From contig NC_052393.1 of assembly GCF_009389715.1 (NCBI RefSeq), forward strand, positions 868,001-932,000: a DNA stretch of 64,000 bases. Reading direction: 5' to 3'. Shown here piece by piece: positions 15,216-56,119 of this stretch. The notes under the pieces were generated by a model. The model had not been told where the DNA came from. It made no database searches and saw nothing but the letters and a program-made list of their open reading frames with translations. The translations under genes were made by a program, and so were the position numbers. The DNA is from Phoenix dactylifera. Lineage: Eukaryota > Streptophyta > Magnoliopsida > Arecales > Arecaceae. Position 1 is the stretch's first letter. The number at the start of each line of letters is the position of its first letter.

Positions 15216-15246
<31 letters not shown>

Positions 15247-15250: not shown

Positions 15251-15483
15251 TTTGTCACGTCTCTGTAGCTTTAGCTAGCTGCCCAGATGACAGGTGACCA
15301 AACCCTTACGCCGCTTTCAACTTTCAACCTCCCTTGTCACACTTCTTTCACCAGACTTCAGAAAGAGCTCCTCTGCTTTTGTGCCACAGAGGTGAAGGGA
15401 AACCAAGGCGGAGAGGAGGTTGAAGAGAAACCCAAAGCGGAGAATAGGATATTTTACCTGACAGCGGAGAAGAGAAAAGAAGC

Positions 15484-15738
15484 CGGAAGGGCGGAGGCGG
15501 CCGGAAGGGCGGAGGCCCAAAGAAGAAGCCGGTATCCCGGTCGGTCAAGGCCGGCCTCCAGTTCCCGGTCGGCCGGATCGGTCGTTACCTCAAGAAAGGC
15601 CGCTACTCCCAGCGCGTCGGCACCGGCGCGCCCGTCTACCTCGCCGCCGTCCTCGAGTACCTCGCCACCGTCCTCGAGTACCTCGCCGCCGAGGTTCTGG
15701 AGTTGGCCGGGAACGCGGCGCGGGACAACAAGAAAAAC
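15484..15738 (+). pseudogene. Captured histone H2A fragment
   Basis: In plus-strand frame the DNA encodes about 85 residues of histone H2A: a basic tail ([18 protein letters not shown]), then [36 protein letters not shown] and [17 protein letters not shown]. This is the N-terminal tail end, helices 1-2 and the start of loop 2 of the histone fold. It lacks the start codon, the rest of helix 3 and the C-terminal tail. Within it, 21 bp encoding VLEYLA(A/T) are tandemly duplicated, which would add seven residues to helix 2, so the product could not fold as H2A. It has no intron and runs opposite to the retroelement. The frame opens after a stop near 15450 and closes near 15850. Confidence 0.88.
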
Positions 15739-16197
15739 CCAAAGCCGGAGAAGAGAAACCCAAAGCCGGCACCTGACAGCGGACGGACAGGCGGGCTCCT
15801 CCTTCTTCTCAGGTCCACTCCGAGCTCCGGCGGGCAGGCTCGATGTGGGTGACAGCAGAGGAGAAGAAATCCACGGCAGGTTGGATGTGGGTCACAGCGG
15901 CGGAGAAACAGAGGACAATCCTCTTCTCCGGTCAGAGGACAATCCTCTTCTCCGGTCTCCTACACCGCCGCCGGAGACCGAGACAAGCTTCTTGGAAGAG
16001 ACCGAAAGGACCTCTCGTTGCCGCCGGCCGCTAGCTCGAAGAGAAGTGAGATGGGAGAAGGAGACTCTCGGGACAATGGAAGAACCTCAGCTAACCGCCG
16101 GCCGTTAGCTCGAAAAGAAGAATGATGGGAGAAGAAGACTTTCAGCACAAAGGGAGAGGGGAGAGGGAAAGAGGCTCTCGTAGAGCTAGAGAAGGTG

Positions 16198-16211
16198 AGG
16201 CTCTGATACCA
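16198..16211 (-). other. Primer-binding site (initiator Met-tRNA)
   Basis: On the minus strand it reads TGGTATCAGAGCCT directly after the LTR end. This matches the 3' end of plant initiator Met-tRNA and is the standard copia primer site. Confidence 0.9.
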
Positions 16212-16348
16212 TGTTGAGAGGGAGATGAAGAGGATAGAGAAACAAGGAAGAAAAGCATATGCTTCTCTACTTCTTCATTATCAGAACAGTGTCATAGCCC
16301 TCTCTTTTATAGATGAGGGTGGCTGTGTACAAGTAAGGTACAGCTAAG
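16212..16348 (-). repeat. 5' LTR, truncated to 137 of 218 bp
   Basis: It is identical to 10945-11081 except one base (A versus C in the CTTCTNTAC word). Homology stops after CAGCTAAG at 16348; the next bases, CATAGAATTC, belong to WAK intron 2. The missing outer 81 bp is the start of U3 in the element's own direction, so the element's promoter is damaged. WAK intron 2 copies have AAAGCATA at this point, so the join has a 3-bp AAG overlap. Confidence 0.9.
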
Positions 16349-17656
16349 CATAGAATTCTAGGCTGCTTAAAAGTTTCAAACTTTCGTTTAGTATGGGAAA
16401 GGAATAAACACGAGGGAGAACCTCCTTGTTATTCGAACTCATGGATTATTACTCTACCTGTCTATTTACAATCTCCAGGCATTGTCGCTAGCACCAGCTT
16501 TGCCCTTCTACTATTACTATGCATTGTCCTTTCCCGGGTACGTGAAAGAAGAAAACTTACAAGGATAAAAGAGGAATACTTTCGGCGACATGGAGGGCGG
16601 TTGTTACTAGAAGAGATAAAGTCGAAGCAAGGTCTTGCATTTAAGGTATATACGAAAGGAGAGCTAGAGCAGGCAACAAATAACTTTGACAAGAACCGAA
16701 TTCTTGGAGGTGGAGGCCATGGAACCGTCTATAAGGGAATACTGAATGACAGTCATGCAGTTGCCATAAAAAAATCAAAAATAATTAATGATTGCCAAAA
16801 GAAGGAATTTGGGAAGGAGATGGTTATTCTTTCTCAGATCAACCATAAGAATGTGGTGAAGCTCTTGGGATGTTGTCTGGAGGTGGAAGTCCCTATGCTG
16901 GTTTATGAATTTGTCTCAAATGGAACGTTATTCCAATTAATCCATGACAGAAATAAGTCATCCCACATTTCATTGGATACCCGTTTGGAGATTGCTTTAC
17001 AGTCTGCAGAAGCCCTTGCATATCTACATTCATCAGCTTCCCCTCCAATCCTTCATGGAGATGTCAAGTCTTCCAACATACTTTTGGATGACAACTACAA
17101 TGCAAAGGTGTCCGATTTTGGAGCTTCAATGTTGGTGCCAAAGGATGAAACTCAGTTTGCTACATTAGTTCAAGGGACTTGTGGTTACCTGGATCCTGAA
17201 TACCTACAAACATGTCAATTAACCGATAAAAGTGATGTTTATAGTTTTGGTGTTGTTCTTTTGGAGCTCCTCACTAGAAAGAAGGCAATTTATTTTGAAG
17301 GATCTGATGAAGAAAGGAGCTTCTCATCAAGTTTTTTATCTGCCATGAAGGAGGATCGACTTCTACAGCTTTTGGACAGTCGTATTAAAAATGAAGAGGA
17401 TATGGAATTGGTACAAGAAGTTGCTGAGCTAACAAAGCGATGCCTCAATGTTAGAAGTGAAGATAGGCCTACGATGAAGGAGGTGGCCGACGACCTAAAT
17501 CGGTTAAAAAAATTCAAGCAGCATCCATTTTTACAACATAATCCTGAAGAGATTGAGAGTTTGCTTGGTAAGCCACCAAGCTACACTGAAAATGAAATCT
17601 CTCAATACTATAGTATAGAAAAGAAAGCAACGATAGATATAGAATGTGGAAGATGA
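16349..17656 (+). pseudogene. WAK1: kinase exon of a decapitated wall-associated kinase
   Basis: Bases 16349-16478 are the 3' part of WAK intron 2, ending in the CAG acceptor. Exon 3 (16479-17656) is open for 392 codons: transmembrane helix (GIVASTSFALLLLLCIVLS), juxtamembrane segment, and a full Ser/Thr kinase with LGGGGHGTVYKG, VAIKK, HGDVKSSNILLD, SDFGAS and GTCGYLDPEY. The signal peptide, GUB_WAK and EGF exons are gone. No in-frame ATG precedes the kinase: upstream the frame meets a TAA inside the LTR (16334), and the juxtamembrane Met of WAK2 and WAK3 is Thr here (KLTRIKEEYF). The kinase is closer to WAK3 than WAK2 (GILNDSH, CCLEVEVP, TENEIS). The intact frame suggests the loss is recent. 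A kinase fragment could appear only through an unusual start or a chimeric transcript. Confidence 0.85.
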
Positions 17657-20130
17657 GCTTTTTTTTCCCTTTGTTTTTCGAAGAAGAGTTGGAGGATGAT
17701 CATATTGCATAGAATAATACAAGTTTCTACCCTTATGTATTAGAACTATATATGATGGTGATTTATATGTACTTGTGCATGCATCTGCGAGATGCAATAT
17801 TTCTAGTTTATGAAATATGGCTAGTTTAAATTATATATTTATGGTTTCATACTAATTGTTGTTGGTGCTGCTATTGTTTTGCTAATCATCCGAACCACAG
17901 TTACAAATTTTGGGCTTTTATTTGAACAAAGAGTAGCTCCAAGTTAGATTATTCTATTTACTTAAAAAAATAATGGTATCCCCAAAGACAAACTTGAAAT
18001 ATATAGTGTAAAAACGCTCAGCCATGTAACAGGCCCGCAAATGAATAATTTCGTCAAGAAAATTATAATTGTTAAGTACAAACCGGTAAACAAACATCAT
18101 GATCATCATAATCTATAGTCAGCATGATTTTTGAAGATTAATTATTTGGCACAACTCCTCTTTATATGCCCATCGCATTAAGGCACTTCTCAGGCTTGGG
18201 CACTTTCAAGTAAATGGGCTTCTTATCAATTTCTTTGAAATGATTACTGGTATATTTTTGTCCCTATTTTACAAAACATAATCCGAGCTATCAGTGCATC
18301 CGTCTTGTTAGGTGAGTCTACGTGGAAATCGGATGACCCAGTCTAATTCGACCCAATGCCGTGCAAATGTGAACTTCTATTTGAACGTGAACATATTGAA
18401 TGCAAAACCTTCATAAGTACCCTTGAGTGTTAATTATAAAAAAAATATTCCACCTCTCTTGTTTTCTTACTAATATAAGAAAACTCTTCCATTTGAACTC
18501 TTTCAGGTTTGGACTCCACTATTTTAATATTTTTTTGAGTGTCGGGAATCTACGCACTGCCTTTTCTCAATGGTATTGGGATTTCATCTTTCGCACGAAT
18601 GAAGGTTTCACCACCGAAAGCCACTGTTGGTTAGTCAACTAGTCGCTTTAGGATACACGCAGGTGGATGCATGATGAGTTCGGAGCGCTCTAAGCTCTAT
18701 GCAGTAGGTGATCAAATAAAAGATTCATGTGAAAGAAAGTGAATCTTCCTTTTGCGGGAGAGACACAGTCCCAATCCTTCTTGGAGACCATCATGACTAT
18801 ATATATGATTTCCTTTTCAAGGGATTTTTTTTAAAAAAACTTTTTAGTAACGCTCTTAATTGGTTGATTCCATGCATGGTTCCTCTTTCCGTCTTTTCTA
18901 AGGAGCTCTCCCTTTCAAACAGAAAAAAATCTCGCTCCACTTGCTACAAAATTCCAAGCTTCATGTACTCTTCATCTTTGGCATTACATGGGCAGCTCTC
19001 ATTGGAACCATCTCAGAAAATTAGATATGTAGACCAGGAGTCGGTCTTCATATTTTCACATTTACTTCCCCCAAGGTGCTGACGAGTTTGGCCATCACAC
19101 GGCAGGCAATAAGCTCAGGGTCCGCAAGTCATCAATCATCTTCCAATCATCCTAGGGATTTGAAATGTTGATAACAAGAAATTCAGACTTTCACACGAAA
19201 AACTCGAAATGTTGATGATTTGAGAAAGAAAACTTCGTGTTTGAGAGAGAAAAACGTGAGTGGTCTCGATCCATGCCACGTTAACGGCTTAAGATAACTG
19301 TTTTGAGGGTTTTTTTTTCTAGAAAAGAAGAGGCTGAGCCGTCTAATTTATTGGACATGCAAGAGAAGTATGTACATGAGAGTCAAAGAACACAGAGATG
19401 AAATGTATATTACGAAGACGGAAAATAAATAAGTAATAGTCAGTGAGAAAGAAATAGAAAACAATGAACCAAGAGCGGCGAATGGAGTGAATCCTCAATC
19501 TATCTAGATCCCTACAACTTGATATATTTTGATGTGCCGATAAAGTAACCCAGTTGAGATTTACCTCCTTTCCATAAGAATGGTTATCTCATCCAGCTTC
19601 ATTATAGTAAATGAGGTGAGGAAAGAAAAGGCTCTCATGTGGACTGATTGTAGGCTAGATACCTCTAGCCAAATGAAAATCGCTGTATAAAGGATCTTAA
19701 TATCATTGTTTTTTAAGTTTTGGGTACCGAAGGAATACACGACCCTCACGCCATGCGGGACGGCCAAAACCCAACCCCATCCGGCAATTGCTTGGCATTT
19801 ACTTCTCGTGCATCCCGACAGCGATTGACGGCTCGACAAGACCCAGCGACGGAGCAAGTCGTCGAACGGGATCGAGTGCGTCGTTTTCCAGACGCGGTGC
19901 GGATAAGAACGACCGTCCAAGGCCCGAAGAAAGGACTAAAGAGGGATCAAGTTAAGCCGTCTTGAAAACACAATCAAGTAGAACATTGACTTGGTGGACG
20001 CGCGACCGACTAGCAGCTTGCGCATTTAGTTGTCACGAGAAATTAATGTCGGCTCGCGATCGGAATACACGGATGCAGCGAAGTAAAAATCAAAATAGCG
20101 ATCTTTCCTGCATCAGCCCTAATTAGAATC
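17657..20130. repeat. WAK 3' flank module, copy 1
   Basis: Homologous to 35437-37200 (after WAK2), 51529-53790 plus 56120-56620 (after WAK3), and in part 31276-32040 and 40798-42511 plus 46499-46690. It gives uninterrupted reference sites for the CACTA insertion (ATCTATCTAGATCCCTAC near 19500) and the solo LTR insertion (GAGATTTACCTCC near 19556). No exon is supported; short open frames differ among copies. Confidence 0.8.
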
Positions 20131-32744: not shown

Positions 32745-32838
32745 AGTAGCGCACCAAGACGTGTGTACCAACTGTAACTATTGGGAAATCGAGGAAGCAT
32801 ATTGATTTTATTTCATCAAAATAGAGATTGAATAAAGA

Positions 32839-35436
32839 ATGAGAGTTACATTTATGGGAGAGTCCGGGAGAGGAGTCGTCGGAGGAGCAAAGCCATTCAT
32901 GGGCGCATGGATGCTGCTGTGCCACTCCCTCTTGACGGTACTGCTCGCTGCCGTGGCTGCATCGCCATTGAACAACACGGGGCCTGCAGGCTGCCGAGCA
33001 AAATGCGGCGACGTTAGCATCCCCTACCCATTCGGCATCGACCCGGGCTGCTACCTTCCTGGCTTCAACCTCAACTGCAATGACGACAATGCCAGTGGCG
33101 TTCCCAAACCTTATATCGGCAGCGTCGAGCTCATCAACATATCCTTGCTGTCGGCCCAGGCTCGCATCTACAATGACATATCCTGGCAATGCTACATCCG
33201 CACGTCACACGACATGTCGTACATGTTACGCAGTCTAGACTTCACCGCCTACCCATACCGGTTCTCGGATGCCGATAACAAGTTCACAGTTGTCGGCTGC
33301 GACACCCTCGCGTACATCAGAGGGCAGAACCAGAAAGCCAGATTTTGCGAATCGACCTGCTCCAGCTCTGATAGCCCGACAAACGGGTCATGCTCCGGCA
33401 TCGGCTGCTGCCAGACCACCATCCCCAAGGGAATCAACTATTATGCAGTGACCTTCGATGGCGACCTCAAGAACTCCCGGGTGTGGGATTTCAATCCCTG
33501 CAGCTACGCCGTTCTGGCCGAAGTGAACTGGTTCAATTTCAGCACGACTTACCTTACTACCGCCGATCTCTTGGACACGGAAGGATCAGGGCGGGCGCCT
33601 GTGGTGCTGGACTGGGCCATCGGCGACGAGCCGTGCGAGGTCGCGCAGCGCAACAGAGACTCCTACGCGTGCCGCAGCGAGCATAGTTCCTGTTTTAACT
33701 CCTCCAATGGCCCGGGATATCTTTGCAACTGCTCCAGGGGCTACGAAGGCAACCCCTATCTTCCCGATGGATGCCAAGGTCGATAATTACCTTCTCTCTC
33801 TGTGAGTATATGCATCCTTCTCTCTCTGTTTCTGGAGCTGACCTTTTGATTTGTTGGACTGGGATGTTAGATATTGACGAGTGCACTCTCAAAGACGAGT
33901 ATCCATGCCATGGGACCTGTACCAACATACCTGGGGATTACATTTGTTCATGTCCACAAGGCACGAATGGCGACGCGAAAAAAGGAACCTGCCAGGGAAG
34001 CCGCAGTAATCCTTTCTCATCAGTGAAATTGGTTATAGGTAATTCCTCCCTTAGCAATAAATTTCGGGTTCTACCACTTCTATCAAGTTTCATTAGACAT
34101 GCATCAAGCACAAACTTCAACTATGCAAAGCATACAACTAGGCTGCTTAAAAGTTTCAATCTTTCGTTTAGTATGGGAAAGGAATAAACACGAGGGAAAA
34201 CCTCCTTGCTATTCGAACTCATGGATTATTACTCTATCTGCCTATTTACAATCTCCAGGCATTGTCGCTAGCACCAGCTTTGCCCTTCTACTATTACTAT
34301 GCATTGTCCTTTCCCTGGTACGTGAAAGAAGAAAACTTATGAGGATAAAAGAGGAATACTTTCGGCGACATGGAGGGCGGTTGTTACTAGAAGAGATAAA
34401 GTCGAAGCAAGGTCTTGCATTTAAGGTATATACGAAAGGAGAGCTAGAGCAGGCAACAAACAACTTTGACAAGAATCGGATTCTTGGAGGTGGAAGCCAT
34501 GGAACCGTCTACAAGGGAATGCTGAATGACAATCATGCAGTTGCCATAAAAAAATCAAAAATAATTGATGATCGCCAAAAAAAGGAATTTGGGAAGGAGA
34601 TGGTTATTCTTTCTCAGATCAACCATAAGAATGTGGTGAAGCTCTTGGGATGCTGTATGGAGGTGGAAGTCCCTATGTTGGTTTATGAATTTATTTCCAA
34701 TGGAACCTTATTCCATTTAATCCATGACAGGAATAGGACATCCCACGTTTCATTGGATGCCCGTTTGGAGTTTGCATTACAGTCCGCAGAAGCCCTTGCA
34801 TATCTACATTCATCAGCTTCCCCTCCAATCCTTCATGGAGATGTCAAGTCTTCCAACATACTATTGGATGACAACTACAACGCAAAGGTGTCGGATTTTG
34901 GAGCTTCAATGTTGGTGCCAAAGGATGAAACTCAGTTTGCGACACTAGTTCAAGGGACTTGTGGTTACTTGGATCCCGAATACCTACAAACATGTCGATT
35001 AACCGATAAAAGTGATGTTTATAGTTTTGGTGTTGTTCTTTTGGAGCTTCTTACCGGAAGGAAGGCAATTTATTTTGAAGGACCTCGTGAAGAAAGGAGC
35101 CTCTCATCAAGTTTTTTATCCGCCATGAAGGAGGATCGCCTTCTACAGCTTTTGGACAATCATATTAAAAATGAAATGGATATAGAGTTGGTACAAGAAA
35201 TTGCTGAGCTAGCACAGCGATGCCTCAATATTAGGGGTGAAGATAGGCCTACGATGAAGGAGGTGGCCGATGACCTAGATCGATTAAGAAAATTCAAGCA
35301 GCATCCATTTTTACAGCATAATCTTGAAGAGATTGAAAACTTGCTTGATAAGCCATCAAGCTACATTAAAAATGAAACCTTTGGGTGCTATAGTATAGAA
35401 AAGAAAGCAACGTTGGATATAGAATGTGAAAGATAA
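32839..35436 (+). CDS. Wall-associated receptor kinase WAK2
   Basis: Exons 32839-33778, 33871-34038 and 34259-35436 (introns 92 and 220 bp, GT-AG, all phase 1) give 761 aa. The protein is a plasma-membrane receptor expected to sense pectin or wall fragments and signal through its kinase. Domains: signal peptide about 21-42 (MGAWMLLCHSLLTVLLAAVA); GUB_WAK from about 52 (CRAKCGDVSIPYPFGIDPGC); an EGF-like repeat about 268-313; a calcium-binding EGF encoded by exon 2 (DIDECTLKDEYPCHGTC); transmembrane helix about 371-390; kinase about 440-720. Kinase landmarks are the Gly-rich loop 445-452, Lys467, HGD 562-564 and DFG 582-584. HGD instead of HRD makes it a non-RD kinase, common among monocot WAKs. 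ATG codons at 32839, 32854 and 32899 are possible starts; the last directly begins the signal peptide. No lesion was found. Confidence 0.9.
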
Positions 35437-37200
35437 TTTTTGTTTTTTTCCTTTGTTTTTCGAAGAAGAGTTGAAGGATGATCATATTGCATAGAATAAT
35501 ATAAATTTCTATCCCTATGTATTAGATCTATGATGCTGATTTAAATGTACTTATGCTTGCGTCTGCGAGATGCAGTATTTCTAGTTTATGAATTATGGTT
35601 AGTTTAAGTTACATATTCATGGTTTCATCTTGATTGTGCTGCTATTGTTTTGCTAATCATCTGAACTACAGTTACAATTTTTGAGCTTTTATTTGAACAA
35701 AGAGTAGCTCCAAGTTAGATTATTCTATTTTCTCAAAAAATAATGGTATCCCCAAAGACAAACTTGAAATATATACTGCAGAAATGCTCGGTCATGTATC
35801 GGGCCTGCAAATGAATAATTTCATCAAGGAAATTATAATTGTTAAGTATAAACCGGTAAATTAACAAACATCATAATCATCATAATTTATAGTCAGCATG
35901 ATTTTTGAAAATTAATTATTTGGCACAACTTTTCTTTATATGTCCATCGCATTAAGGCATTTCTCAGGTTTGGGCACTTTCAAGTAAATGGGCTTCTTCT
36001 CAATTTCTTTGAAATGATTACTGGTATATTTTTCTCCCTATTTTACAAAACATAATTGGAGCTATCGGTGCATCCGTCTTGTTAGGTGACTCTACGTGGG
36101 AATCGGATGACCCAGTCTAATTCGACCCAATGTCGTGCAAATGTGAACTTCTATTTGAACGTGAACATATGGAATGCAAAACCTTCATAAGTACCCTTGA
36201 GTGTTAATTATAAACAAATATCCAACCTCTCTTGTTTTCTTAGTAATATAAGAAAACTCTTCCATTTGAACTCTTGCAGGTTTGGACTCCACTATGTTAA
36301 TATCTTTTTTTTGCTAATCATGTTAATATCTTTTTGAGTGTCGGGAATCTAGGCATTGCCTTTTCTCAATGGGATTAGGATTTCATCTTTCGCACGAATG
36401 AAGGTTTCACCACCGAAAGCCACTGTTGGTTAGTCAACTAGTCGCTTTAGGATACACGCAGGTGGATGCATGATGAGTTCGGAGCGCTCTAAGCTCTATG
36501 CAGTAGGTGATCAAATAAAAGATTCATGTGAAAGAAAGTGAATCATCCTTTTGCGGGAGAGACACAGTCCCAATCCTTCTTGGAGACCATCATGCCTATA
36601 TATATGATTTCCTTTTCAAGGGACTTTTTTTTTAACTTCTTAGTAACGCTCTTAATTGGTTGATTCCATGCGTAGTTCCTCTTTCCGTCTTTTCTAAGGA
36701 GCTCTCCCTTTCAAACAGAACAAAATCTCGCTCCAGTTGCTACAAAATTCCAAGCTTCATGTACTCTTCATCTTTGGCATTACATGGGAAGCTCTCACTG
36801 GAACCATCTCAGAAAGTTAGATATGTAGGCCAGGAGTCGGTCTTCATATTTTCACATTTACTTTCCCCTAAGTCATCACATGGCAGGCAATAAGTCCAGG
36901 GTCCTCAAGTCATCAATCATCTTCCAATCATCCTGAGAGATTTGAAATGTTGGTAACAAGAAATTCAGACTCTCACACGAAGAATTTGAAATGTTGATGA
37001 TTTGAGAAAGAAAACTTCATGTTTGAGAGACAACAACGTGAGTGGTTTCGATCCATGCCACGTTAACAATTCAGATGTACGCTGTGCGTGTAAGAAGGGG
37101 TCCTCCAAGGCTCGAAGAAATGAGAAAACGACAATCAAGTGGGAACGCCAGGTTGGTCACGGACTTAAAAGAGGCACGACCGACTAGCAGTTAATGCACT
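35437..37200. repeat. WAK 3' flank module, copy 2
   Basis: Close match to 17657-19260, e.g. GATGCATGATGAGTTCGGAG and CACCACCGAAAGCCACTG. No gene seen; the open frames are not conserved among copies. Confidence 0.75.
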
Positions 37201-39305: not shown

Positions 39306-40797
<1,492 letters not shown>

Positions 40798-42511
40798 CAG
40801 ACAAACTTGAAATATATGGTGCAGAAAGGCTCAGCCATGTAACAGTTCCACAGGTGAATAATTTCTTCAAGAAAATTGCTTAGACTTTTGTAGTTTTGAG
40901 TTGATAGGGCGACCATTCTAACCCTTTAGTTATCGGCCGACTAGAAGCTTGTGCAAGGGGCTCCGTGCTTTCACACTTGGTTGATATCGATTTTTAGACT
41001 TTGTCGAGTGTGAACCGGCAAACAAATATCACAATCTGTAGTTATTTGGCATGACTCTTCCTTACATGCCCATCGCATGAAGATAGGCACTTTCAAGCAA
41101 GTGGGGTTCTTATAAATTTCTTTAAATTGACTACTAGTATATTTTTCTTACTATTTTACAAAATAGAATTGGAGCTATCAGTGTCTCTGGAACAAGGGAG
41201 TAAGATTGTCCAATTCCACCCAAGGCCTTGCGTGAACTTCTATTCAAATATAAACACGTTGAATGGAAATCCTCCATAAGTACCCTTAGGAAGTGTTTGG
41301 TGACCAAAATAGGACCACTAAGATGATGTTAGACTATCGATGATCCTTATCTCAGAGTTATCTAATTTTTGGTGATCCAAAATCATCGCGTTTGGTATAC
41401 TATATTCCAGTGATTAAAGATTCATGCGTATCCATAAGTAATCCATTTGGTTTTCTCTGAAAATCCAGCATCACTAACCATATAATACTAAAGCTATCTC
41501 TAATATATTCCATAAAAATATATTTATTAATCATATAAAATATATTATAATAAGGCACTTTTGGTATTAAGTAATCATAGATCCAAAAATCAAAGATGAT
41601 GTAGGTGGAGGTGACAAGATCACCGTATTTGGTTGCACCACAGTGATCCTACCTATCATAATCCTAAATCACCCCCATTCCTCAAATCACCGTCCAACCG
41701 AGTGATAAAATACCCGTCTCTGAGGTAGAAAATCCAATATATCATTAATATATTATGTCAATATTATATATAATGTTACATTATATTGATGTAATTCATA
41801 TTATATTTATGATATATTATATTATTAATCTTATTATCATTCAATAATAATTTTCAGTTATAGTAAAAATATATTATTGTACTTTATATTTATATAATGA
41901 AAAATATCTAATATATTATTTTTATTTGTCTTATTTTTCTAATCAAAATAGATGCATGACAAGTTTGAAGTGCTTTAAGTTCTGTGCAGTCGGCGATCCA
42001 ATAAAAGATTGGCGTGAAAGAAAATGTATCCCTCTTTTGTGCGAAAAGTCGCAACCCCAAACCTTCCCGAAGGCCATCATGACTATATATATGTTTTCCT
42101 TTTCAGGGGATTTTTTTAACGCTCTTAATTGGCCGACTCAGTGCATTTTTTCTCTTTTCGTTTTTTCCAAGGAGCTCTCCCTTTCAAAAACGGAAAAAAT
42201 TTCTTGTTTTACTTGCTACAAAATTCCAAGCTTCATTTACTCTCATTGAAACCATCTCGGAAAGTTGGATGTGTAGACTAGAAGTCGGTCATCGCACGGA
42301 AGGCAATAAGTCCAGGGTCCTCCGTCCTCGGGTTATCAATCACGTTATTCCAATCATCTAAAGAGATATGAAATGTTGATAACAAGAAATTAAGACTTTC
42401 ATATGAAGAATTTGAATTAATGATGATGCTTCGAGATAGAAAACTCCATGTTTGAGAGAGGAAAACAATGAACCGAGAGTGGCGAATTGAGTAAATCTTC
42501 AGTCCATCTAG
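40798..42511. repeat. Ghost WAK unit 2 (3' flank only)
   Basis: At 40798 upstream-module sequence jumps directly to WAK 3' flank (ACAAACTTGAAATATATGGTG, matching 17988). Flank homology continues to about 41289 and resumes at 41935-42511 (GATGCATGACAAGTTTGAAG). Between them (41290-41930) is an AT-rich, MITE-like insert beginning GGAAGTGTTTGGTGACC, with unclear ends. The WAK gene itself is absent. Confidence 0.7.
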
Positions 42512-42534
42512 CACTACAACAAAAAAGATTTTTG

Positions 42535-42770
42535 CCGACTTTGTATTGCCGACGCTAGTTAAAAGCGTCGGCGATTTTTTTTGTTGGGACAGTAACCACC
42601 AACGCTTCTGAGAAGCGTCGGTAAAAAAGCTTCCAGCGACGCTTTTTTTAAGCGTCGGCGTCTGGGCGCATTACCGATGCTTATAAGCGTCGGAATATTT
42701 AAACACCGACGCTGTTAGGCGTCGGCATAACGGAAGAACATGACGACGCTTATAAGCGTCGTCGGACTTC
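42535..42770. repeat. CACTA left subterminal repeat zone
   Basis: About seven copies of a GACGCTTxTAAGCGTCG-like inverted motif, the likely transposase-binding sites. A 5' UTR-like sequence follows directly. Confidence 0.8.
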
Positions 42771-42908
42771 ATTCCTCCCGCATACCCCCTCCCTCTAAAG
42801 CCCTAAATCCCCTGACCGACTCCCTCTCTTCTCAACCCTTTTCACCGATCTCATCCATTCTCCTCCGCCGAGCGCTCTCCGTCGTCGCGATGGGGGGAGT
42901 CGCTGCTG

Positions 42909-43362
42909 ATGCGGGCGTTGAGCAAGCGGCGGACGTGGGTCTTCCTCTTCCTCGTCGTCTACTCCCTCCTCCTCTCCTCCTCCTGGAACCTCCTCCTCTC
43001 CATCCGCTCCTGGTACAACTCGGCGGCCGCCTCCACCTCCTCCCGCGCCGCCGCCGGCTGGAAGGCCCTCTACGCCTCCGTGCTCTACGGAGGGGTCTTC
43101 GGCCTGCTCTCCATGGGGGCGGCGTTGGCCGTGGCGGTGCCGGCCACGTTGGTCACCTGGATCACGATCCTCGTGCTGCTCGCCTTCGCCGGAAAGCCCC
43201 GACGGGCGCTCGTCGCCGACGGCCGTCGGATCACCGCCGACATCGCCGGTTTCGCGCTCAAGATCCTCCTCCGAGAGGGAAACCTCGTCGCCGTCGTCGG
43301 CGCCGTCCTCAGCTTCGTTGCCCTCCTCCTCCGACGGAGACGAGGCGGAGCTGAGGACCAAG
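42909..43362 (+). pseudogene. Captured membrane-protein first exon
   Basis: ATG at 42909 after a UTR-like CT-rich leader opens 151 codons ending at a donor AAG|GTTTTTG (exon end 43362). The protein starts MRALSKRRTWVFLFLVVYSL and has hydrophobic spans at about 9-29, 55-95 (two helices, e.g. ALAVAVPATLVTWITILVLL) and 122-140, with basic loops (RRRRGG). It resembles an uncharacterised plant multipass membrane protein that I cannot name. Strong GC bias, especially at third positions, sets it apart from its surroundings. Splicing its phase-1 donor to the next recognisable exon (44458, phase 0) would read G-GT-TAA and stop at once. Two upstream ATGs are out of frame. Confidence 0.6.
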
Positions 43363-44457
43363 GTTTTTGTTCTATCATTGCATCTCCAGAGTCTTTCAGA
43401 ATATTTCGTCTAAATCATTACATTTTTTTTTTCATAATCTATAAAATTTGGATTTATAGCTGTACCTTGTCTATTTTGTGTTAATGCTTTTTGGTGGATA
43501 GCTATATTCTTCTTTAATTCCTGGGATTTTCTTCATTTACTTCTTGCTGTTGTCACTAGAATCCGAGGATAAAGTATGGCCTTGGATGTCTCTCATCTAA
43601 TTCTATGTAATTCTCTTTTTCTTGGAGTTAACCTTTTCTTTTGTTGCTTTTGATTGACCGAAATTGGTCCATTGCATTGTTATTGCTTGAAGGTCTTTCC
43701 TCTGCTCTTTTGGTGTGCTTTTGAGGTTTAATTGTTTTGGATGGGAAAAATTGTGTTACAAGCTCATGACTAATAGATAACAAGATTGTTCTCTTGTATT
43801 TCCCTCCTTCCCACCATTTGTGTTACTCGATCTATTGTTCTGCTTCTTTATTTAGCTGACTGAGCTCTTTTTGCTTATTTTTCACTGAAATTGTGCCTCC
43901 CGTTATTATCTTGTTTAAAGCATTACTGAATGTTTTGAACTCTGATTTGATAACTCACTGGTGATATGGAACATTGAATGGAGATTTGTAGGAGATTTTT
44001 GGCCCAACACATACTCGTATGTTGACAGGGCTTTACACATATGGTGTCTTTTTATCCTTATGTTTGCACCAATAATGTGGCTTACATGTTCTTCATGTGA
44101 TCTAAGAACTAGATCAGTTTCATGAGTGAACAATGGCTAGGCCTTTGACTGACATGTGGCCTTGCAGTCAAGTTTTAGGCATGTCATGTGGTTTTTTGTC
44201 TTTCTCAATGTTGGAGAAGAGAATGGCCAAACCAGCTACCGCACAAAGTGTTCTGAATTTTTACTTGTAGAATTTTAAGGCTCACCAAAATTGTCTGTAG
44301 TAGAGTTTCTGTCCAACATAATCTCTACCACGATTTAAGTAGAAATTTCTTTTTTACTCTCATAGTATTTCTTTTTTACTCTCATAGTATTTTTACTTGT
44401 AGAGTTGTCGGCCTGTTGCCTGTGTCTGCCATATGCTCATCTCATTCATGACTGTAG

Positions 44458-45405
44458 GTTAATGAGGAAGCAAGTGATAAAGTTTTGGAGGTGGAACAGA
44501 AATATAATGAGATTCGAAGACCTGTCTACATTAAACGGAATGAGATCATCCAATCCATTCCAGACTTTTGGTTAACTGCGGTTCGTAATCTCTCTTTTTT
44601 TAGTAATTATATATTTAAGCTACAACCTCTTTTTTGGAACATTCTCATCTAATAGTTTTTCTTTTTTGTATTTCTGTGTGTAATGCTTAACTCTTTAGTT
44701 CCTGAGTCATCCTGCTCTTAGCGATCTTCTGACAGAGGAAGACCAAAAGGTATGCATGCTGTTATTTTTGAAACATGCTGTGTTCAAACTAAGTGTGGTG
44801 GAAATTGTTACTCCATCCAGAATAAATATATTAACTATATCAATTAGAGATATCATTCTAGGACCTTTGTCAGGTTCTTCTGGATTTATCTGATGTCTGG
44901 TATTACTTGGAACCCATTATAGATTTCCAGGTGCTTGTGTTAATAAAGTTCCTTTGATGCAGATTTTCAAGTATTTGGTTTCATTGGACGTTGAAGATTG
45001 TCAAGATTTGAAGTCAGGCTACTCCATTATATTTGTGAGATGTTGTTTGTTTTTGACGAAATAGCCATTCTGTTGCTATGAATAAGTATATTCTTGTGAT
45101 TTATTACCTTTAATCAATTGACTGGGTGTTTGTCATGTATAGAACTTCTCTCCTAACCCATATTTTGAAGACACAAAGCTTGTGAAGACTTATTCCTTCA
45201 CTGAGGAAGGAGTGGCTAATATAACCGGTACGACTATCAAGTGGAAGGAGGGTATGGTAAGGTTATTATCTTATGCGGTAATCATTGATATTTTTCTGAG
45301 TCAGGTATTAGTTTTAATGTTTGTTTCTCATAATATCTTGTAGGAGATTGCCAATGGTAATGGTCATGAGAAGAAGGGAAGCAAGCGACCTTTTACTGAG
45401 GAAAG
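44458..45405 (+). pseudogene. Captured NAP1-related (SET-like) histone chaperone exons
   Basis: Five consecutive exons with GT-AG borders: 44458-44580 ([20 protein letters not shown]), 44699-44749 (FLSHPALSDLLTEEDQK), 44963-45034 (IFKYLVSLDVEDCQDLKSGY), 45143-45256 ([20 protein letters not shown]), 45344-45405 (EIANGNGHEKKGSKRPFTEE). The first four have lengths divisible by three. Together they encode the dimerisation helix and much of the earmuff domain of plant NRP1/NRP2, nuclear chaperones of H2A-H2B. The N-terminal exon, the FFxWF exon and the acidic tail are missing. After 45405 no expected partner exon appears; the next acceptor (about 45870) leads into unrelated sequence. Introns are kept, so capture was from genomic DNA. 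The frames are undamaged. Confidence 0.88.
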
Positions 45406-46177
45406 GTTGGCTTTAGTACCATGTAATCTTGTTTTATAAGCAATTGCTGGATATTTAACTGATTTTGTCACGTTGAGTATCTGATAATTTATGATAATTC
45501 TGCTGTTGTTGCTTTCAATATTAGGATTATTCATATTTATGTATATCATATGCATATTCTTTCCAAGTAGATCGCCGTTCACATTTCCCTCCTAGTTCTT
45601 CTTAGAAGACCAGGAATCTTATTTTTGCTATGGCTATGGCTATGGCATGCAAGCAGTCAAGGACTCCATAGTGCATATACAATGTGTAGGCTGCATATAC
45701 AGACAATATGCAATTTGTATCAACATCCATGTAGTGCCCCAGCATGAAATCCATCAAAGGCCAGCCTTCTTAAGTCCTTCCTTCAACATGCATATAAATA
45801 AGTATCATATTTTTTGGAAGAGCTTAATAAATTTTGTATTCTTAACTTCTTAAGGTTTTTTTATTACAGGTTCCTGATACTTCATCTGCTCGTAGAAATG
45901 GTGACTCCATTGATCCCTGAAGCTTTTATTTTGGAGTTTTATATGCATTTTTTTATGCTTTTCGAAGTACATTGCAAATGTAAATTGACAGTATGAATGT
46001 AATTTGACAATATGAATGTAATTTGACAAAATGAATGTTTTGATAAATATGTTTGATTGTGCTATGAGTATAATCTCGTTTAGTGTGAATGCTTTTGATT
46101 TTGTAAACAGAGTTTTAAAAAAAAAATTTAATTTTTTTTAAAAAAAATTTAATTTTTTTTTAAAAAAATTATACTCT

Positions 46178-46465
46178 AACGACGCTTTAAAGCGTCGTTA
46201 AAATCCCGGTGTTTTAACTATTACCGACGCTTTAAAGCGTCGGTAGGTTTGACTTTAACTACGCTTTAAAGCGTCGCTAGTTACCGACGCTAAAAAGCGT
46301 CGCTAAATTGCAATTAGCGACGCTTTTAAGCGTCGCTAAATTGTACGTTACCGACGCTAAAAAGCGTCGCTAATGACCGACGCTTGCCACTGTAGCATAG
46401 GCGACGCTTGGGATAGCGTCGGGATGGTTTTTACCGACGCTTAAAAGCGTCGCTAATGGCAAAAA
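46178..46465. repeat. CACTA right subterminal repeat zone
   Basis: About nine copies of (A/C)CGACGCTTTAAAGCGTCG(C/G)TA or close variants, several being perfect 16-18 bp palindromes. Poly(A)/poly(T) runs at 46110-46170 precede it. Confidence 0.85.
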
Positions 46466-46498
46466 AAAGCGTCGCTAATGCCCAATTTTCTTGTAGTG

Positions 46499-48809
46499 TA
46501 GATTCCTACAACTTGACATATGGCATATTTTGGTGCACCACGAAAGTAACCCAGTTGAGATTTGCCTCCCTTCTACAAGAATAGTTTTCTCAACCAGTTT
46601 CATGATAATAATGAGGTGAGGAAAGAAAAAGCTCTCATGTGAATTTATTCTAGGCTAGAGGCATGTAGGCAAATAGAAAATTGCTGTATATTACTGTAGA
46701 AAACTTCTATAACATGTTTGTAAAGAATTCACACCAGAATGTGATTATTTGAAAAGGTATAGCTACCATGGTGTCAAAGGTTGGGATAGTGGTGGAGTCC
46801 AAATCCTCTTTGCCTTGACGACGTGGGTACAACATGCATCCAATATGATATTTACAAAAGATCAAAGAACTTAGTATCTTCTCACAAGTCTTTTTGGGAG
46901 AGGTCCTATGTTGTTATAAATAGTATCAAAATGAATTCGGCCTATGGCCCATGTGGACCGTGATATTTTTGATTAGATTTACGATACTTATAAATAAATT
47001 TGGACTCTTAGGTTGGTATGTACTTATTTATACAAGGCTAAGATTGCCTCACGTAAATGCAAAAATTCTTGATCTAAAATTTTTATGCACAAAAAGGTTT
47101 TATGTATGTTTCACTAGAAGTGTTATCAATTATAACTTAAAGTGTTTAATATTTAATAAATTAAAAAAAGTAATAAAATAGTATATCCTACATGTTAATG
47201 ATCAACTATACTAGTACATTAGGTAGAGTGCAGGAGGGACCCGTCCTAATGATATGCAATAGATATCTACTGATACAAGTTCTTTGGAATGGAACAAATA
47301 ATAAAAAGGTAAAGTAGTTTGAAAATGGAAGAAGCAAGAACAAAGTAAAAAAGAAATGGGAAGAGATTATTTCCCCCTTGACACTTGCTGTAGAAGGTCA
47401 CTTTTGACCGAAACCAAGAACATGCAGGCATGCCCTTTTCTAACGAGAGTGCATCTTTGTACACTCAAATATGAATCACCTCGCGTAACTTCTAACCAAA
47501 ACCAAAATCAAGAACGTGAAACTTCTCTGTTTCTTGATGATTGGCTGCTGATTCTTGACACCGCACAGCTTTATAAGTTACATACATATTTCTCTGTCAT
47601 TCGTAGTAGAGCTCATTTTTATGGTTATTCCATTATAGGTCCAACCTAGTCCCACTTGTGGGCTCAACAGAAAACTTGTTTTCTTCTTTCAAGGAACTTA
47701 GCCGAAGCCTTGCATTTGGACGAGTAACATTGACGCATCAACACAGATCGCATCGAAGAAGGACCCAACTCACCCAACCCCATTGAACCAACATGGACTT
47801 GACAAAAATTATATACAGATCCATACATATAATATCAGAGAGGTATATATTGTTTTAGGTTTCGTCTATCAAATTTTGCAACTAAAATAATATTAGATCT
47901 TCGTGGGTTTTTATTTTTCTCAGACATCCCAAAGTAATTTGACTCTATTTTTTTTCAAAAAAATCTAATCCATCTTCTATCCATGTCCCCAAATAATAGG
48001 GTTCTTTTGAAAATCAAAAGGAAAAAAAAAACAATACTCTTTAGCTAATTTATGGATTTTATATATCTTATCTGAAATTCTATTAATGTGCAGTGGAGAT
48101 TTTTTTTTTCTTGCTAGTATATGCAACACATCTTTGATTTTGGTTTATTAAGCGAAGGAATCAGATGTGGATCTAAAATTAGATTGAAAGGTAATTTAAA
48201 TCAAGTTGTAGTCTACATTTGGGTAGCCCGACTCAACCTACATGTCGTTCAAGCTTTGGAGAAGGTTTTGGCATCAAGAATTTTAAAGCCTAATTGTCTT
48301 AGCTATCATGGTGGATGACCCATAGGTAGTTAAACTTGGATCTTAGTATCATCTCAGTCAAGGTGGCAAATAAATAATATTCAAAAAGAAATCCTGTACT
48401 ATTCTGAAATGTCAATTAATGCATAGAAATAGAGCAACCGAAATACTACAAATATAGCAAAACTTAGTTGAACCGCATGTTGATTTTAGGATTTTTTTTA
48501 AAATTAATCCTCACAATCTCTAATATTTGCGTGTTAGCGCTTGTCTTTTTCTTATTACGGCATTACACATGGAAAAAAAAAAATTATTGACTTAATAGTT
48601 GACTGGACCAAGTCATCGGACTGAGAAAGTCGCCGAACGGGATCGAGTGCAAGGGTATGGAATGCCCTCGGACGCAGCGTGGATATCTTTGCCCCATGCG
48701 TGACCTAAATGACTTCGGTTGAATAGGTCAGCCTGAGAAAATACCCAGCGCGTGCCTTGGGTTGTAGATGTGATCCTCCTCGTTCCACGTCCCACTCGAT
48801 CGATCACCT
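46499..48809. repeat. Module sequence between CACTA and WAK3
   Basis: Bases 46499-46690 continue the 3' flank (match 19503-19690). Bases 46990-47760 match 63560-64000. Bases 47760-48110 match 9590-9980, and 48125-48809 is the WAK3 upstream region (match 32040-32736). No gene seen. Confidence 0.7.
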
Positions 48810-48817: not shown

Positions 48818-48924
48818 TCAGCGGCGCGCTAAGGCATATGTACCAACTCTAACTACATATTGGGAAGACGAGGAAGCATATTGATTTTTTTGTTCATCAA
48901 ACAAAAAAAAACATCGAATAAAGA

Positions 48925-51528
48925 ATGAGAGTTACATTTATGGGAGAGTCCGGGAGAGGGGTCGTCGGAGGAGTAAAGCCATTCATGGGCGCATGGATGC
49001 TGCTGTGCTACTCCCTCTTGACGGTACTGCTCATTGCCGGGATGGCATCGGCATTGAACAACACGCTGCCTGGCTGCCGACCAACATGCGGCAACGTTAG
49101 CATCCCCTACCCATTCGGCATCGACCCGGACTGCTACCTTCCTGGCTTCGCACTTAGCTGCAACGACACTGGGAATGGCGTCCACAAACCTTTCTCCACC
49201 AACGTCGAGTTCATCAACATAGACTTGCTGGCAGCCCAGGCTAGCATCTACAATCAAATATCCTGGCAATGCTACAACCACACGTCCAACGGTACGTCGA
49301 ATACCACATGGTATCTAGACTTCATCAACGATCCATACCGGTTCTCCGATGCCGATAACAAGTTCACAGTTGTCGGCTGCGACACCCTCGCGTACATCAA
49401 CGGGCAGAATCAGCAAGACAGCTACGACGGCGGATGCGTAACGGTCTGCGACAGCAGTAAGAGCCTGACAAACGGGTCATGCTCCGGCATCGGCTGCTGC
49501 CAGACATCCATCCCCAAGGGAATCAACTATTATGAAGTGACCTTCGATCGCAACTTCAACAACTCCCTGGTGTGGGATTTCAATCCCTGCAGCTTCGCCG
49601 TTCTGGCAAAAACCGACTGGTTCAAGTTCAACACGACTTACATTACTAGCACCGATTTCTATTATACGCATGGAGGGCGGGCGCCCATTGTGTTGGACTG
49701 GGCCATCGGCGACGAGCCCTGCGAGCTCGCGCGGCGAAACACAACCTCCTATGCGTGCCAGAGCGATCACAGTGACTGCTTTAACCCCTCCAATGGCCCA
49801 GGATATATTTGCAAGTGCTCCAGAGGCTACCAAGGCAACCCCTATCTTGCCGATGGATGCCAAGGTCGATAATTACCTTCTCTCTCTGTGAGTATATGTG
49901 TCCTTCTCTCTCTGTTTCTGGAGCTGACCTTTTGATTTGTTGGACTGGGATGTTAGATATTGACGAGTGCGCTCACAAAGATAAGTATCCATGCTATGGG
50001 ACTTGTACCAACATAGCTGGGGATTACAATTGTACTTGTCTGCCAGGCACAAATGGCGACGCGAAAAAAGGACCCTGCAATCCCGACCAGGGAAGCCACA
50101 GCCATCCTTTCTCATCAGTGAAATTGGTTATAGGTAATCCCTCCCTTGGCAAGAATTTCGGTTTCTACCGCTTCTATCAAGTTTCATTAGACACGCATCA
50201 GGCACAAACTTCAACTATGCAAAGCATAGAACTAGGCTGCTTAAAAGTTTCAATCTTTCGTTTAGTATGGGAAAGGAATAAACACGAGGGAAACCTCCTT
50301 GTTTTCGAACTCATCAATGATTTCTCTATCTGTCTATTTACAATCTCTAGGCATTGTCACTAGCACCAGCTTTGCCTTTGTGCTATTACTATGCATTGCC
50401 GTTTCTATGTTACGTGAAAGAAGAAAACTTATGAGGATAAAAGAGGAATACTTTCGGCGACATGGAGGGCGGTTGTTGCTAGAAGAGATAAAGTCGAAGC
50501 AAGGTCTTGCATTTAGGGTATTTACCAAAGAAGAGCTAGAGCAGGCAACAAACAACTTTGACAAGAACCGAATTCTTGGAGGTGGAGGCCATGGAACCGT
50601 CTACAAGGGAATACTGAATGACAGTCATGCAGTTGCCATAAAAAAATCAAAAATAATTGATGATTGCCAAAAGAAGGAATTTGGGAAGGAGATGGTTATT
50701 CTTTCTCAGCTCAACCATAAGAATGTGGTGAAGCTCTTGGGATGCTGTCTGGAGGTGGAAGTCCCTATACTGGTTTATGAATTTGTCTCAAATGGAACGT
50801 TATTCCAATTAATCTATGACAGAAAAAGGGCATCCCATATTTCATTGGATACCCGTTTGGAGATTGCTTTACAATCTGCAGAAGCCCTTGCATATCTACA
50901 TTCATCAGCTTCCCCTCCAATCCTTCATGGAGATGTCAAGTCTTCCAACATACTTTTGGATGACAACTACAATGCAAAGGTGTCCGATTTTGGAGCTTCA
51001 ATGTTGGTGCCAAAGGATGAAACTCAATTTGCTACACTAGTTCAAGGGACTTGTGGTTACCTGGATCCTGAATACCTACAAACATGTCAATTAACCGATA
51101 AAAGTGATGTTTATAGTTTTGGTGTTGTTCTTTTGGAGCTCCTCACTGGAAAGAAGGCAGTTTATTTTGAAGGATCTCATGAAGAAAGGAGCCTCTCATC
51201 AAGTTTTTTATCCGCCATGAAGGAGGATCGACTTCTACAACTTTTGGACAATCATATTAAAAATGAAGAAGATATGGAGTTGGTACAAGAAGTTGCTGAG
51301 CTAGCAAGGCGATGCCTCAATGTTAGGGGTGAAGATAGGCCTACGATGAAGGAGGTGGCTGATGACCTAGATCGGTTAAGAAAATTCAAGCAGCATCAAT
51401 TTTTACAGCATAATCCTGAAGAGATTGAGAGCTTGCTTAACATGCCATCAAGCTACACTGAAAATGAAATCTCTAGGTACTACAGTATAGAAAAGAAAGT
51501 AGCGTTGGATATAGAATGTGGAAGATGA
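48925..51528 (+). CDS. Wall-associated receptor kinase WAK3
   Basis: Exons 48925-49864, 49957-50133 and 50351-51528 (introns 92 and 217 bp) give 764 aa with the same phases as WAK2. Same architecture: signal peptide (MGAWMLLCYSLLTVLLIAGM), GUB_WAK (CRPTCGNVSIPYPFGIDPDC), EGF, EGF-Ca (DIDECAHKDKYPCYGTC, three codons longer in exon 2 than WAK2), transmembrane helix (GIVTSTSFAFVLLLCIAVSM), kinase with LGGGGHGTVYKG, VAIKK, HGDVKSSN and SDFGAS. The ectodomain differs from WAK2 in a patch around residues 115-135 (NHTSNGTSNTTW against RTSHDMSYML), while the stretch of about 75 residues from ALQSAEALAYLHSS to EYLQTC is the same in all three WAKs. The lineage-specific part is therefore the sensing half. 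No lesion was found. Confidence 0.9.
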
Positions 51529-53222: not shown

Positions 53223-53790
53223 AAGCACCTTTGAGAGTTAATTATAAAACAATGTCCCACCTCTCTTATCTTCTTAGTAATATAAGAAAACTTTTCCATT
53301 TGAACTCGACACATGTTTGCACTGTCTTTTCCTGATGGGATAGGGATTTCATCTTTCGCATGAAAGATGGTTTCACCACCCAAATCCACTATTAGATCGT
53401 CAACTAGTCGCTTTAGGATATGTGCAAGTGGATGCATGATGAATTCGGAGCGCTCTGAGATCTATGCAGTGGGTGATCCTTCATGTGAAAGAAAGTGGAT
53501 CATCCCTTGTTTTTTTTTAGTGATGCTCTTAATTGGTTGATTCCTTGCATAGTTCCTCGTTCCGTCTTTTCTAAGGAGCTCTCCCTTAAAAAAATTCTCG
53601 TTCCAGTTGCTACAAAATGCCAAGCTGCATCTGCTCTTCATCTTTGGCATTACATGAGCAGCTCTCTTGTTTTTCTTTCTAGAAAACAATGAACCAAGAG
53701 TGGCGAATGGAGTGGATCCTCAATCTATCTAGATTCCTTCAACTTGATGTATTTTGATGTGCCGATAAAGTAACACAGTTGAGATTTACC
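53223..53790. repeat. WAK 3' flank module, copy 3 (second part)
   Basis: Matches 18415-19560 with deletions. It ends in the target duplication TTACC (53786-53790) and includes the uninserted CACTA site ATCTATCTAGATTCC near 53723. Confidence 0.75.
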
Positions 53791-56119
53791 TGTTAGGATC
53801 TGTGACATGCCGCTGAAAATTCAAAAATTTTCAGATATGCAGCGGAAAGACAGGTGCATATCCCGTTCATCGCATGAACGTATTTTAAAACCTTTTGTAG
53901 ATAGATCAGGATTAAATTCTTATTAAATCATTTTAAAATCATGATTAAGAAGATCAGATCTTCACCTTGTGCGGGTAGATGGTCTCCGCAAATCTGATTC
54001 ACGTGGTATTTGATGAAGGTTCAGTGGATGCCGCACACGCATCCGGCTTCTACATATATCCACACGAAGTAATGATTCGATCGAAGCCTTTGGATCTTCC
54101 CGGGGTGCTAGCTCCCTTGCAGAGATGGCTATAGATGGCTGAGATCCTCTCCTTTGAATCAACTCTTGATTGCCTTGAGAAGAGGAAGATGAAGAAGGAA
54201 TCTAGGAAGAAGAATAAAAGGCCCTTCGCAGCCTTTTCTTTTCCATACGCTAGAACCAAGGAAGAAAGACCAAGAGGAGATGAAAGCCTCCTCTTCTTTT
54301 CTTCTTGCTGATGGCGGATGAAAGGAGGAAGAGAGGAGAGATCTTCACGGCTGAAAATGAAGGGAATTCACTCAAAAATTCGCAGCCCCTTGACCCCCTT
54401 CTTTGTTGGTGTGTGGATAAGGATGAGCTCCTAAATTTTAGGAGCTCATCTTTATCCCTATTTTGAATTCAAATAGGAGGGGCATGGCCCCTCCTTTTTC
54501 CTTCACGCCACCAGCCAAGGGAGAGGTATGGGCCCCTCCCTCTTCTTCCATATGGTCAGCCCCTAGTTGATCAAATCAAGTAGGGAGGGTTGGGTCCAAG
54601 GATGGGTCCAATCCTATTCAAAATAGGATTATGTACACCCATTTTAATTTCTCCAAATTCTAATCCAATTAGAATTTAATTGAACCATGACTCTATTGAA
54701 CTCTTCAATCCTAATCCAATTAGGAGTCTTTTAATTAATTAGATTAAAATTAAAATTAATTAGGAGTTAAGAAAATCCTAATCTAATTAGGACTTATTAA
54801 ATTTCAGCCCTAAGGCAATTAGGACTTTAGAAATCCTATTTCAAGTAGGACTCTAATTTAATTGAAATCATAATCCAATTAGGACTCCAAGGATCCTACT
54901 CCAAGTAGGACTCATGATCAAGTCCAATTAATTAAATCAAATTAATTAAATTAAATTGCAATCCGATTACAATTATTCCTTCTTCAACTCACTAACTCTT
55001 AGCGGGTTAACCAATTATCAATCAAATTGATTATTTGTGATTTCTAATCACAATTCAACCATCAGACCGGTCAATACCTCTAATGTGTGTGACCCCATAG
55101 GATCTATTCTGACTGGTAGTGAGATATATTGCGATCTCTATCACAATATCATTGAAAACTCCTTTCAATGGGTTGAAACAATTCCAACTCAACTCACGAG
55201 AGATTATCGACCATCAAGATGATCCCTGTGAGTCTCACCATCCACCAGTGACACCTAGCAGTATGTAGTGGCTACCCAGCAGAATAGAATGATGAACCTC
55301 TAGGTGCAGTTATCATATGATACAGTCCTTCTATCGTGGATCCCTACAGACCGGAGGTCATGGATAACTCGTCAAACCCCGTCGTCCGTCATATGTCTAG
55401 ATTTATTCGACTTGAGTTCGATAGTGGAGAAAACTCTTTCTCCACTGTATATTACTGCTCTGGCCAAGGTCTTAGAACTCAGTCTAATAAATCACATAGG
55501 ATCACTCCTCTTCTATCAAGGTCGATAGATTCCATGTAAGTGCATACCCTACTCCTACAGTGAACCTACTGCAGCCAATCTACACTACAAGGACCCATAT
55601 GACTAGAGACCATGTATATGTATAGTCAAACTACAATAACCTCACTGTGAGTAGCCGAAGCGCCGCAGGTCAAAGGACCAGTCACACTACTGCAACATCA
55701 AGCAAGTCACTGACGAGTGGATAGACATTCAAGTGACTTCTTGTCTTGGTCATGCTCAGTACCTTTGTTCTCTAACAAGCACCTGCACTATCACTTCAGT
55801 GTCCCTACACTATGGACTCGAGTCTCGTCCATCCATAAGGAAAGCGATCTGTGCACTGATCGGATCGATCACCGTCCTCATGATGATCCATTGATCAGGA
55901 GCATTTAGAAATTAATCACCAATGATACATGGCTCAAATTCTCAACTCTTGAGAATATGTATCATTATCTTATTAATTCCTTTGGACGATTCATAGACAC
56001 ATAAACAATATGAATGAAAAGATGCCCTTTTATTATTCAATAATAAAGTCAAGTACAAATTTATGTTCCAGAATTAATAATGTGTCCGCCAGATTGGCTT
56101 CTAGGGCATACATCTAACA
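53791..56119. mobile_element. Solo LTR (2.3 kb)
   Basis: Ends are TGTTAGGATCTGTG and GGCATACATCTAACA (TGTTAG...CTAACA), flanked by a perfect TTACC duplication (53786-53790, 56120-56124). Uninterrupted counterparts of the site are at about 19556 and 46570. It has no direct repeat of its ends and no gag or pol, so it is a solo LTR. Short open frames inside (e.g. 55037-55539) have no recognisable content. On the minus strand it starts TGTTAGATGTATGCCCTAG, likely the element's true orientation. Confidence 0.85.

Follow-up and report, generated by a model that had tools for sequence, protein, structure and literature searches.

Pack-CACTA elements of Arabidopsis, rice and maize have CACTACAA ends and short target duplications, contain no transposase and carry pieces of host genes, which in some cases derive from two or more loci (Gisby and Catoni 2022, PMC8903248). 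In soybean, the CACTA element Tgm-Express1 carries five unrelated host gene fragments, and their splicing has been described (Zabala and Vodkin 2007, PMC1947982). Rice CACTA elements carry the precursor of miR820, which resembles OsDRM2 from the second exon to the third intron and makes a microRNA (PMC3459959). Because multi-gene capture by Pack-CACTA elements is documented (PMC8903248; PMC1947982), the kind of element described here is known, as a first-pass annotation of the locus had stated. The element occupies positions 42512–46498 of a 64,000-nucleotide stretch of Phoenix dactylifera DNA (assembly GCF_009389715.1, contig NC_052393.1, positions 868,001 to 932,000, forward strand), hereafter called the window. 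It is a 3,987-bp CACTA (En/Spm-type) transposon, and sequence comparison traces its host pieces to four or more donor loci. We conclude that it is very probably a non-autonomous Pack-type CACTA transposon that was assembled stepwise and has no likely host function.

The element has the same ends as the Pack-CACTA elements of PMC8903248, and likewise lacks a transposase and holds host gene pieces. It differs in that a single genome shows four donors, one of them represented by two permuted pieces, along with sibling stages and a truncated relative. Both Tgm-Express1 and the palm element hold several host gene fragments with exons and introns retained; transcripts and alternative splicing were shown for the former, whereas the latter has six near-identical copies. 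The rice miR820 element shares with ours a piece of a DRM DNA-methyltransferase gene. However, the palm piece is apparently non-coding, whereas the rice precursor resembles a part of OsDRM2 that includes an exon (PMC3459959). The present combination of genes was not found in literature on CACTA elements with nucleosome assembly or NAP1-related protein, and the main text of PMC8903248 mentions neither palm nor Phoenix. The earlier suggestion that the combination may be undescribed therefore agrees with the literature searched. The element is a new Pack-CACTA member with an unusually complete record of capture.

The first-pass annotation had described the CACTA ends as perfect. The CACTA cores are indeed perfect, but the full terminal inverted repeat (TIR) matches at only 12 of 13 positions. 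The TAG target duplication was found on both sides, as reported. Ends of this type were absent elsewhere in the window in a search allowing at most one mismatch. The palindromic motif GACGCT-N1-8-AGCGTC occurs three times in 42512–42770 and seven times in 46101–46498, and is missing from both the element middle and the window outside the element (60,013 bases). Specificity is lower for the half-motif GCGTCG, with 10 occurrences in the 5′ part, 17 in the 3′ part, none in the middle and 15 in the rest of the window. Thus, subterminal motifs are repeated in both orientations, as is characteristic of CACTA (En/Spm) elements. The joined flanks of the element align unbroken to two paralogous empty sites in the window, each with one TAG at the junction. 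Because there are two such sites, insertion as one unit, which the annotation had regarded as proven, is shown twice. At a third paralogue (36465–37030) only the left flank matched and the alignment did not reach the junction.

We searched part of the window's own assembly (773,078,369 bases in 2,391 contigs) for further copies. Forty of 1462 first-look candidates were scored, and copy numbers are therefore lower bounds. At least six full-length copies, including that of the window, were found at 97–100% identity, with pairwise differences of 0.64–1.18% substitutions. An exact 3-bp target duplication flanks five of the six. Because there are six dispersed full-length copies, five of them with exact duplications, the element has moved as a unit. 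A three-base duplication is described for soybean Tgmt* (PMC2613891). In contrast, PMC8903248 gives a 5-nt target duplication for rice and maize CACTA elements, which disagrees with the 3 bp of the present copies.

Three kinds of sequence account for the interior of the element: host pieces, filler (about 80 bp) and CACTA end regions in which only the leader and the last exon remain of a transposase gene (Table 1; q numbering in the table and text begins with q1 at window position 42512). By this accounting of pieces the interior holds no transposase of its own, without a separate scan of the whole element with hidden Markov models. The annotation had recognized pieces of two host genes and had overlooked two more donor loci. 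Donors are present in the same genome, on contigs C10, C16, C1 and C6, and the captured exons are not part of a host gene running past the element ends; together with siblings that share the ends, this agrees with the original reading of a Pack-CACTA element with host gene pieces. None of the fetched donor stretches matched the element ends, short matches included. Substitutions between the window copy and the donors amount to 2.2, 3.5, 2.1 and 2.5% for pieces 1, 2, 3 and 4a, respectively.

Table 1. Features of the element, its empty sites and the surrounding window (window positions).
Feature	Position	Strand	Remarks
Left target-site duplication, TAG	42509..42511	.	Single TAG at both empty sites
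5′ TIR, CACTACAACAAAA	42512..42524	+	12/13 identical to 3′ end
5′ subterminal repeat array (GACGCT..AGCGTC)	42512..42764	+	
CACTA 5′ leader	42765..42874	+	q1-363 ~75% identical to C8:7593871 relative
Captured piece 1, membrane-protein gene, codons 5 to ~168	42870..43362	+	Donor C10:7436654-7437150
Captured piece 2, apparently non-coding, upstream of a proline-rich open reading frame (ORF)	43363..43736	+	Donor C16:8165714-8166092
Filler at junction of pieces 2 and 3	43737..43756	.	
Captured piece 3, apparently non-coding, between exons of a DRM-type gene	43757..44339	+	Donor C1:6483835-6484421
Filler with 22-bp tandem duplication, internal-deletion junction	44340..44399	.	
Captured piece 4a, NAP1-related protein (NRP) gene, end of intron 1 to intron 6	44400..45634	+	Donor C6:5576376-5577610
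NRP exon 2	44458..44580	+	
NRP exon 3	44699..44749	+	
NRP exon 4	44963..45034	+	
NRP exon 5	45143..45256	+	
NRP exon 6	45344..45405	+	End set where GT comes next
Captured piece 4b, NRP intron-1 stretch	45637..45803	+	Donor C6:5571119-5571285
CACTA 3′ region common to sibling elements	45795..46498	+	
Start of last exon of CACTA transposase gene (VPDTSSARR..)	45870..45920	+	C8 relative VPDSSSARR..
3′ subterminal repeat array	46170..46498	+	
3′ TIR, reversed, CACTACAAGAAAA	46486..46498	-	Paired with 5′ TIR, 12/13
Right target-site duplication, TAG	46499..46501	.	
Paralogous empty site 1, one TAG	19457..19689	+	Joined flanks 81.7% over 241 columns
Paralogous empty site 2, one TAG	53682..53791	+	Joined flanks 80.3% over 117 columns
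Wall-associated-kinase-like gene	16337-17656		
Wall-associated-kinase-like gene	32836-35436		
Wall-associated-kinase-like gene	48922-51528		
Copia retrotransposon	10945-16352	-	~141-bp direct repeats 10945-11084 and 16212-16352, 98.6%, likely long terminal repeats
Second Copia-type stretch	5836-8160		Pfam matches to gag and zinc knuckle; more ORFs follow downstream

The donor of piece 1 is an intact intronless gene of 170 codons (MADLERSPSSRW...GEDQDL), and the element lacks only its first four and last two codons. What had been called the first exon of a membrane protein is thus a nearly complete gene, its origin as a first exon being ruled out by the intronless donor. The first in-frame ATG that remains is at 42909. 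The frame has a GC content at third codon positions of 0.908, compared with 0.638 and 0.537 for the other two frames, and the protein has no real match in Pfam or PDB. The supposed exon/intron boundary at 43362/43363 proved to be a deletion junction, since two siblings (L028 and L030) retain there the stop codon and 3′ untranslated region (UTR) of the membrane gene. At this point L028 has about 440 bp, comprising 3′ UTR and more of piece 2, that the window lineage lacks. The GT resembling a splice donor at 43362/43363 was brought by piece 2, as in six of six siblings shown. The proline-rich ORF near the piece 2 donor has no Pfam match.

The donor of piece 3 adjoins an ORF for the catalytic part of a DRM-type DNA methyltransferase (PDB 4onj, 9.5e-183). 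On its other side is a stretch that we read as a UBA-like exon, where Pfam gave no match; no exon was recognized within the captured stretch itself. A miR820-like hairpin or match to a DRM exon was considered and rejected (the DRM exon region gave E 0.30 at best), and the piece has no unusual fold, lying 1.2–1.3 standard deviations below the mean of 30 shuffles.

The five NAP1-related exons with introns that had been recognized are exons 2–6 of an NRP gene (Pfam NAP, 5.5e-28); they match residues 32–171 of NAP1-related protein 2 (PDB 6jqv, 1.3e-65). As these exons are still accompanied by their introns, capture took place at the DNA level. Exon 1 of the donor (MVADNGKKSK...DELEK) lies at about C6:5568.7 kb, and its later exons and acidic tail lie downstream. 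Piece 4a also matches near-identical stretches on C720 and C1731, and C1358 and C581 match part of it. Piece 4b comes from the same gene and strand, about 5 kb upstream of 4a in the donor, and is downstream of 4a in the element; the two NRP pieces are therefore permuted.

The last exon in the element belongs to a CACTA transposase gene. This assignment came from a CACTA relative on contig C8 (5′ end at 7593871, minus strand) with an 855-aa frame containing Transposase_21 (4.1e-97), Transpos_assoc and DUF4218 domains. Identity to the relative is about 75% where its first 393 bases align to q1–363, and 86.5% where q3287–3463 aligns to a stretch toward the relative's 3′ side that holds the acceptor and start of the last exon. 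From the leader and last-exon matches we conclude that the element retains both parts of the transposase gene around its host pieces; through this relative, it has ends in common with a tnp2-encoding element. At least 150 Transposase_21 matches were scored in the genome, among 534 candidates. A second such locus (L045) contains the word CACTACAACAAAT and does not align to the element ends.

Siblings sharing the same ends were found and mapped. A search with the first 394 bases of piece 2 identified 24 places in the genome: seven of the present lineage (the six full copies and truncated L025), 14 that are sibling-like, the C16 donor and two 44-bp pieces on C257. Seven of the 14 sibling-like loci were mapped, two of which (L027 and L034) have no 5′ end within the fetched stretch and were seen in part only. 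Both ends lie within the stretch in five of the seven, all but one of them flanked by an exact 3-bp duplication. Piece 2, of whose C16 locus siblings hold up to about 660 bp, is present in all seven, and the membrane and DRM pieces are each present in five, the two partial loci included in the count. No NRP match was found in any of the seven, again counting the two seen in part. In L028 (C4:30378500-30385500) a CACTA-like 3′ end at 1094 is followed by a 5′ end at 1724 in the same orientation. Other host-type sequences were found in L026, with an MBOAT_2 (wax-synthase-like) ORF (1.1e-14), and in L029, with a DUF247 ORF (5.4e-43). The truncated copy L025, on C11, lacks the 5′ CACTA end and contains, in this order, a longer DRM stretch, sequence in common with siblings and a longer NRP piece; the middle that it retains is missing from the window lineage. 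Taken together, these comparisons point to stepwise capture, the siblings and truncated relative holding other stages. The membrane gene, piece 2 and the DRM piece would have been acquired first, followed by NRP, an internal deletion and spread of the finished element.

A further element, L033 (C1:10227407-10232662), is 5.26 kb long, has CACTA ends and is flanked by CAG on both sides. It holds the other NRP paralogue from exon 2 to the last exon, 98.9% identical over 1,583 bp to the gene on C15 (L032); it also carries an additional 5′ piece. In a tree whose bootstrap was unsettled, L033 paired with the C15 gene at 100/100, and the seven copies of the window family formed a group (99/98) adjacent to the C6 gene and near-copies of that gene. 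This separate placement indicates two independent captures, one of each NRP paralogue, by elements whose ends are related.

In our model a relative would supply transposase in trans to mobilize the element, and pieces would have been added by template switching during gap repair. Seven acquisition junctions were read by eye; four share 3–6 letters (GAGCG, GGATC, GGT and TACATA), two have filler and one has a triplication of TATGGC. We favor template switching because of these shared letters, the filler and slippage, and the permuted NRP pieces. A neighboring-insertion model has been proposed for Arabidopsis Pack-CACTA elements, in which the inner ends of two closely spaced CACTA copies are lost and the pair then transposes as one, along with the enclosed host DNA (PMC8903248; PMC13317346). 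In L028 the CACTA-like 3′ end precedes the element's own 5′ end by about 630 bp, the starting layout of that model. However, trapping should keep donor order, which template switching need not, and the NRP pieces, about 5 kb apart in the donor, are permuted. Furthermore, pieces from four contigs would require several rounds of neighboring insertion, and slippage and filler at the junctions are better matched by copying. We therefore regard neighboring insertion as an unlikely account of the element, although it is possible for pieces other than NRP. Clean exons and introns inside the ends could also suggest an ordinary intron-bearing host gene lying between CACTA-like sequences by chance, but the two empty sites and six dispersed copies refute this, and the donors lie on other contigs in a different order; there is next to no chance that this reading is correct.

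Another reading is that the element now works as a new chimeric gene, with a membrane-protein or NRP-derived product under selection. In our model, transcription would start in the retained transposase leader, proceed through the captured pieces and end in the last transposase exon. The spliced transcript of the window copy would encode a 152-aa truncated membrane protein, the NRP exons being an untranslated dead end. Canonical splice letters remain at all five NRP exons in five of seven copies (L025 included), and in L006 (C6:5102238-5106165) a 13-bp deletion in the membrane piece yields a modeled ATG-started frame of 326 codons that continues into the NRP exons, both of which would suit a chimeric gene. 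However, the modeled frame stops at 152 codons, directly past the membrane-piece junction, in five of six copies, and in the L006 fusion most of the membrane gene is read in the wrong frame. Two of the seven copies, L002 and L004, have lost a splice acceptor, and in L006 and L025 the frame of the membrane piece has shifted. Among the seven copies, the NRP exons have six nonsynonymous and two synonymous variable sites, with about 333 and 87 sites available, and this variation looks near neutral. Changes on the donor branch are three synonymous and one nonsynonymous, and introns on the element branch have eight changes in 807 sites. From these small counts, the copies are unlikely to be maintained as a gene, and we consider a chimeric gene very unlikely. 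The element is most likely without host function. Small interfering RNA (siRNA) cross-talk between element and donors is possible. A very improbable idea is that the lineage repeatedly captures silencing and chromatin genes (both NRP paralogues, independently, and DRM) and produces small RNAs from them that would weaken silencing. If true, this would be a convergent counterpart of the rice CACTA-miR820 system. About 233 of 322 donor NRP exon 21-mers (an approximate count) and 321 of 493 21-mers of the donor membrane-protein coding sequence are identical in the window copy.

Several observations weigh against a non-autonomous, stepwise-assembled Pack-CACTA transposon lacking host function. The sixth full copy, L005, has an inexact 3-bp duplication (ACC/AAC, with AACC on both sides). 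We did not find the 3′ terminus of the C8 relative within the 1.7 kb fetched, and at about 75% identity in its 5′ end that relative is too far removed to count as the active transposase source. Piece breakpoints come from BLAST alignments accurate to a few bases, and the letters shared at junctions, read by eye, may be due to chance. The membrane frame is open in five of the six full copies, a weak hint of past constraint, and the fixed NRP exon changes on the element branch, two synonymous and no nonsynonymous, are another; both would also favor a chimeric gene. Transcription, splicing and siRNAs are inferred from sequence.

The window itself is a cluster of wall-associated-kinase-like genes. 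Beside the gene at 16337–17656 only a kinase ORF was found, with no galacturonan-binding ORF of at least 150 aa, and a Copia element adjoins it. Positions 39748–39880 equal their own reverse complement over about 132 bp, probably a simple repeat.

Pack-MULEs of rice resemble the present element in being non-autonomous and in carrying host fragments from multiple loci, but belong to another superfamily, with different ends and target-duplication length. They are mentioned in PMC8903248 and PMC13317346. How CACTA elements pick up genes is still debated, and here donors, siblings, a truncated relative and finished copies are found in one genome, in which capture order and junctions can be read directly. 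The permuted NRP pair bears on the choice between trapping and template switching, and the second NRP capture lets one ask whether capture is random. In annotation of the palm genome, copies of the element could pass for NRP or membrane-protein genes.

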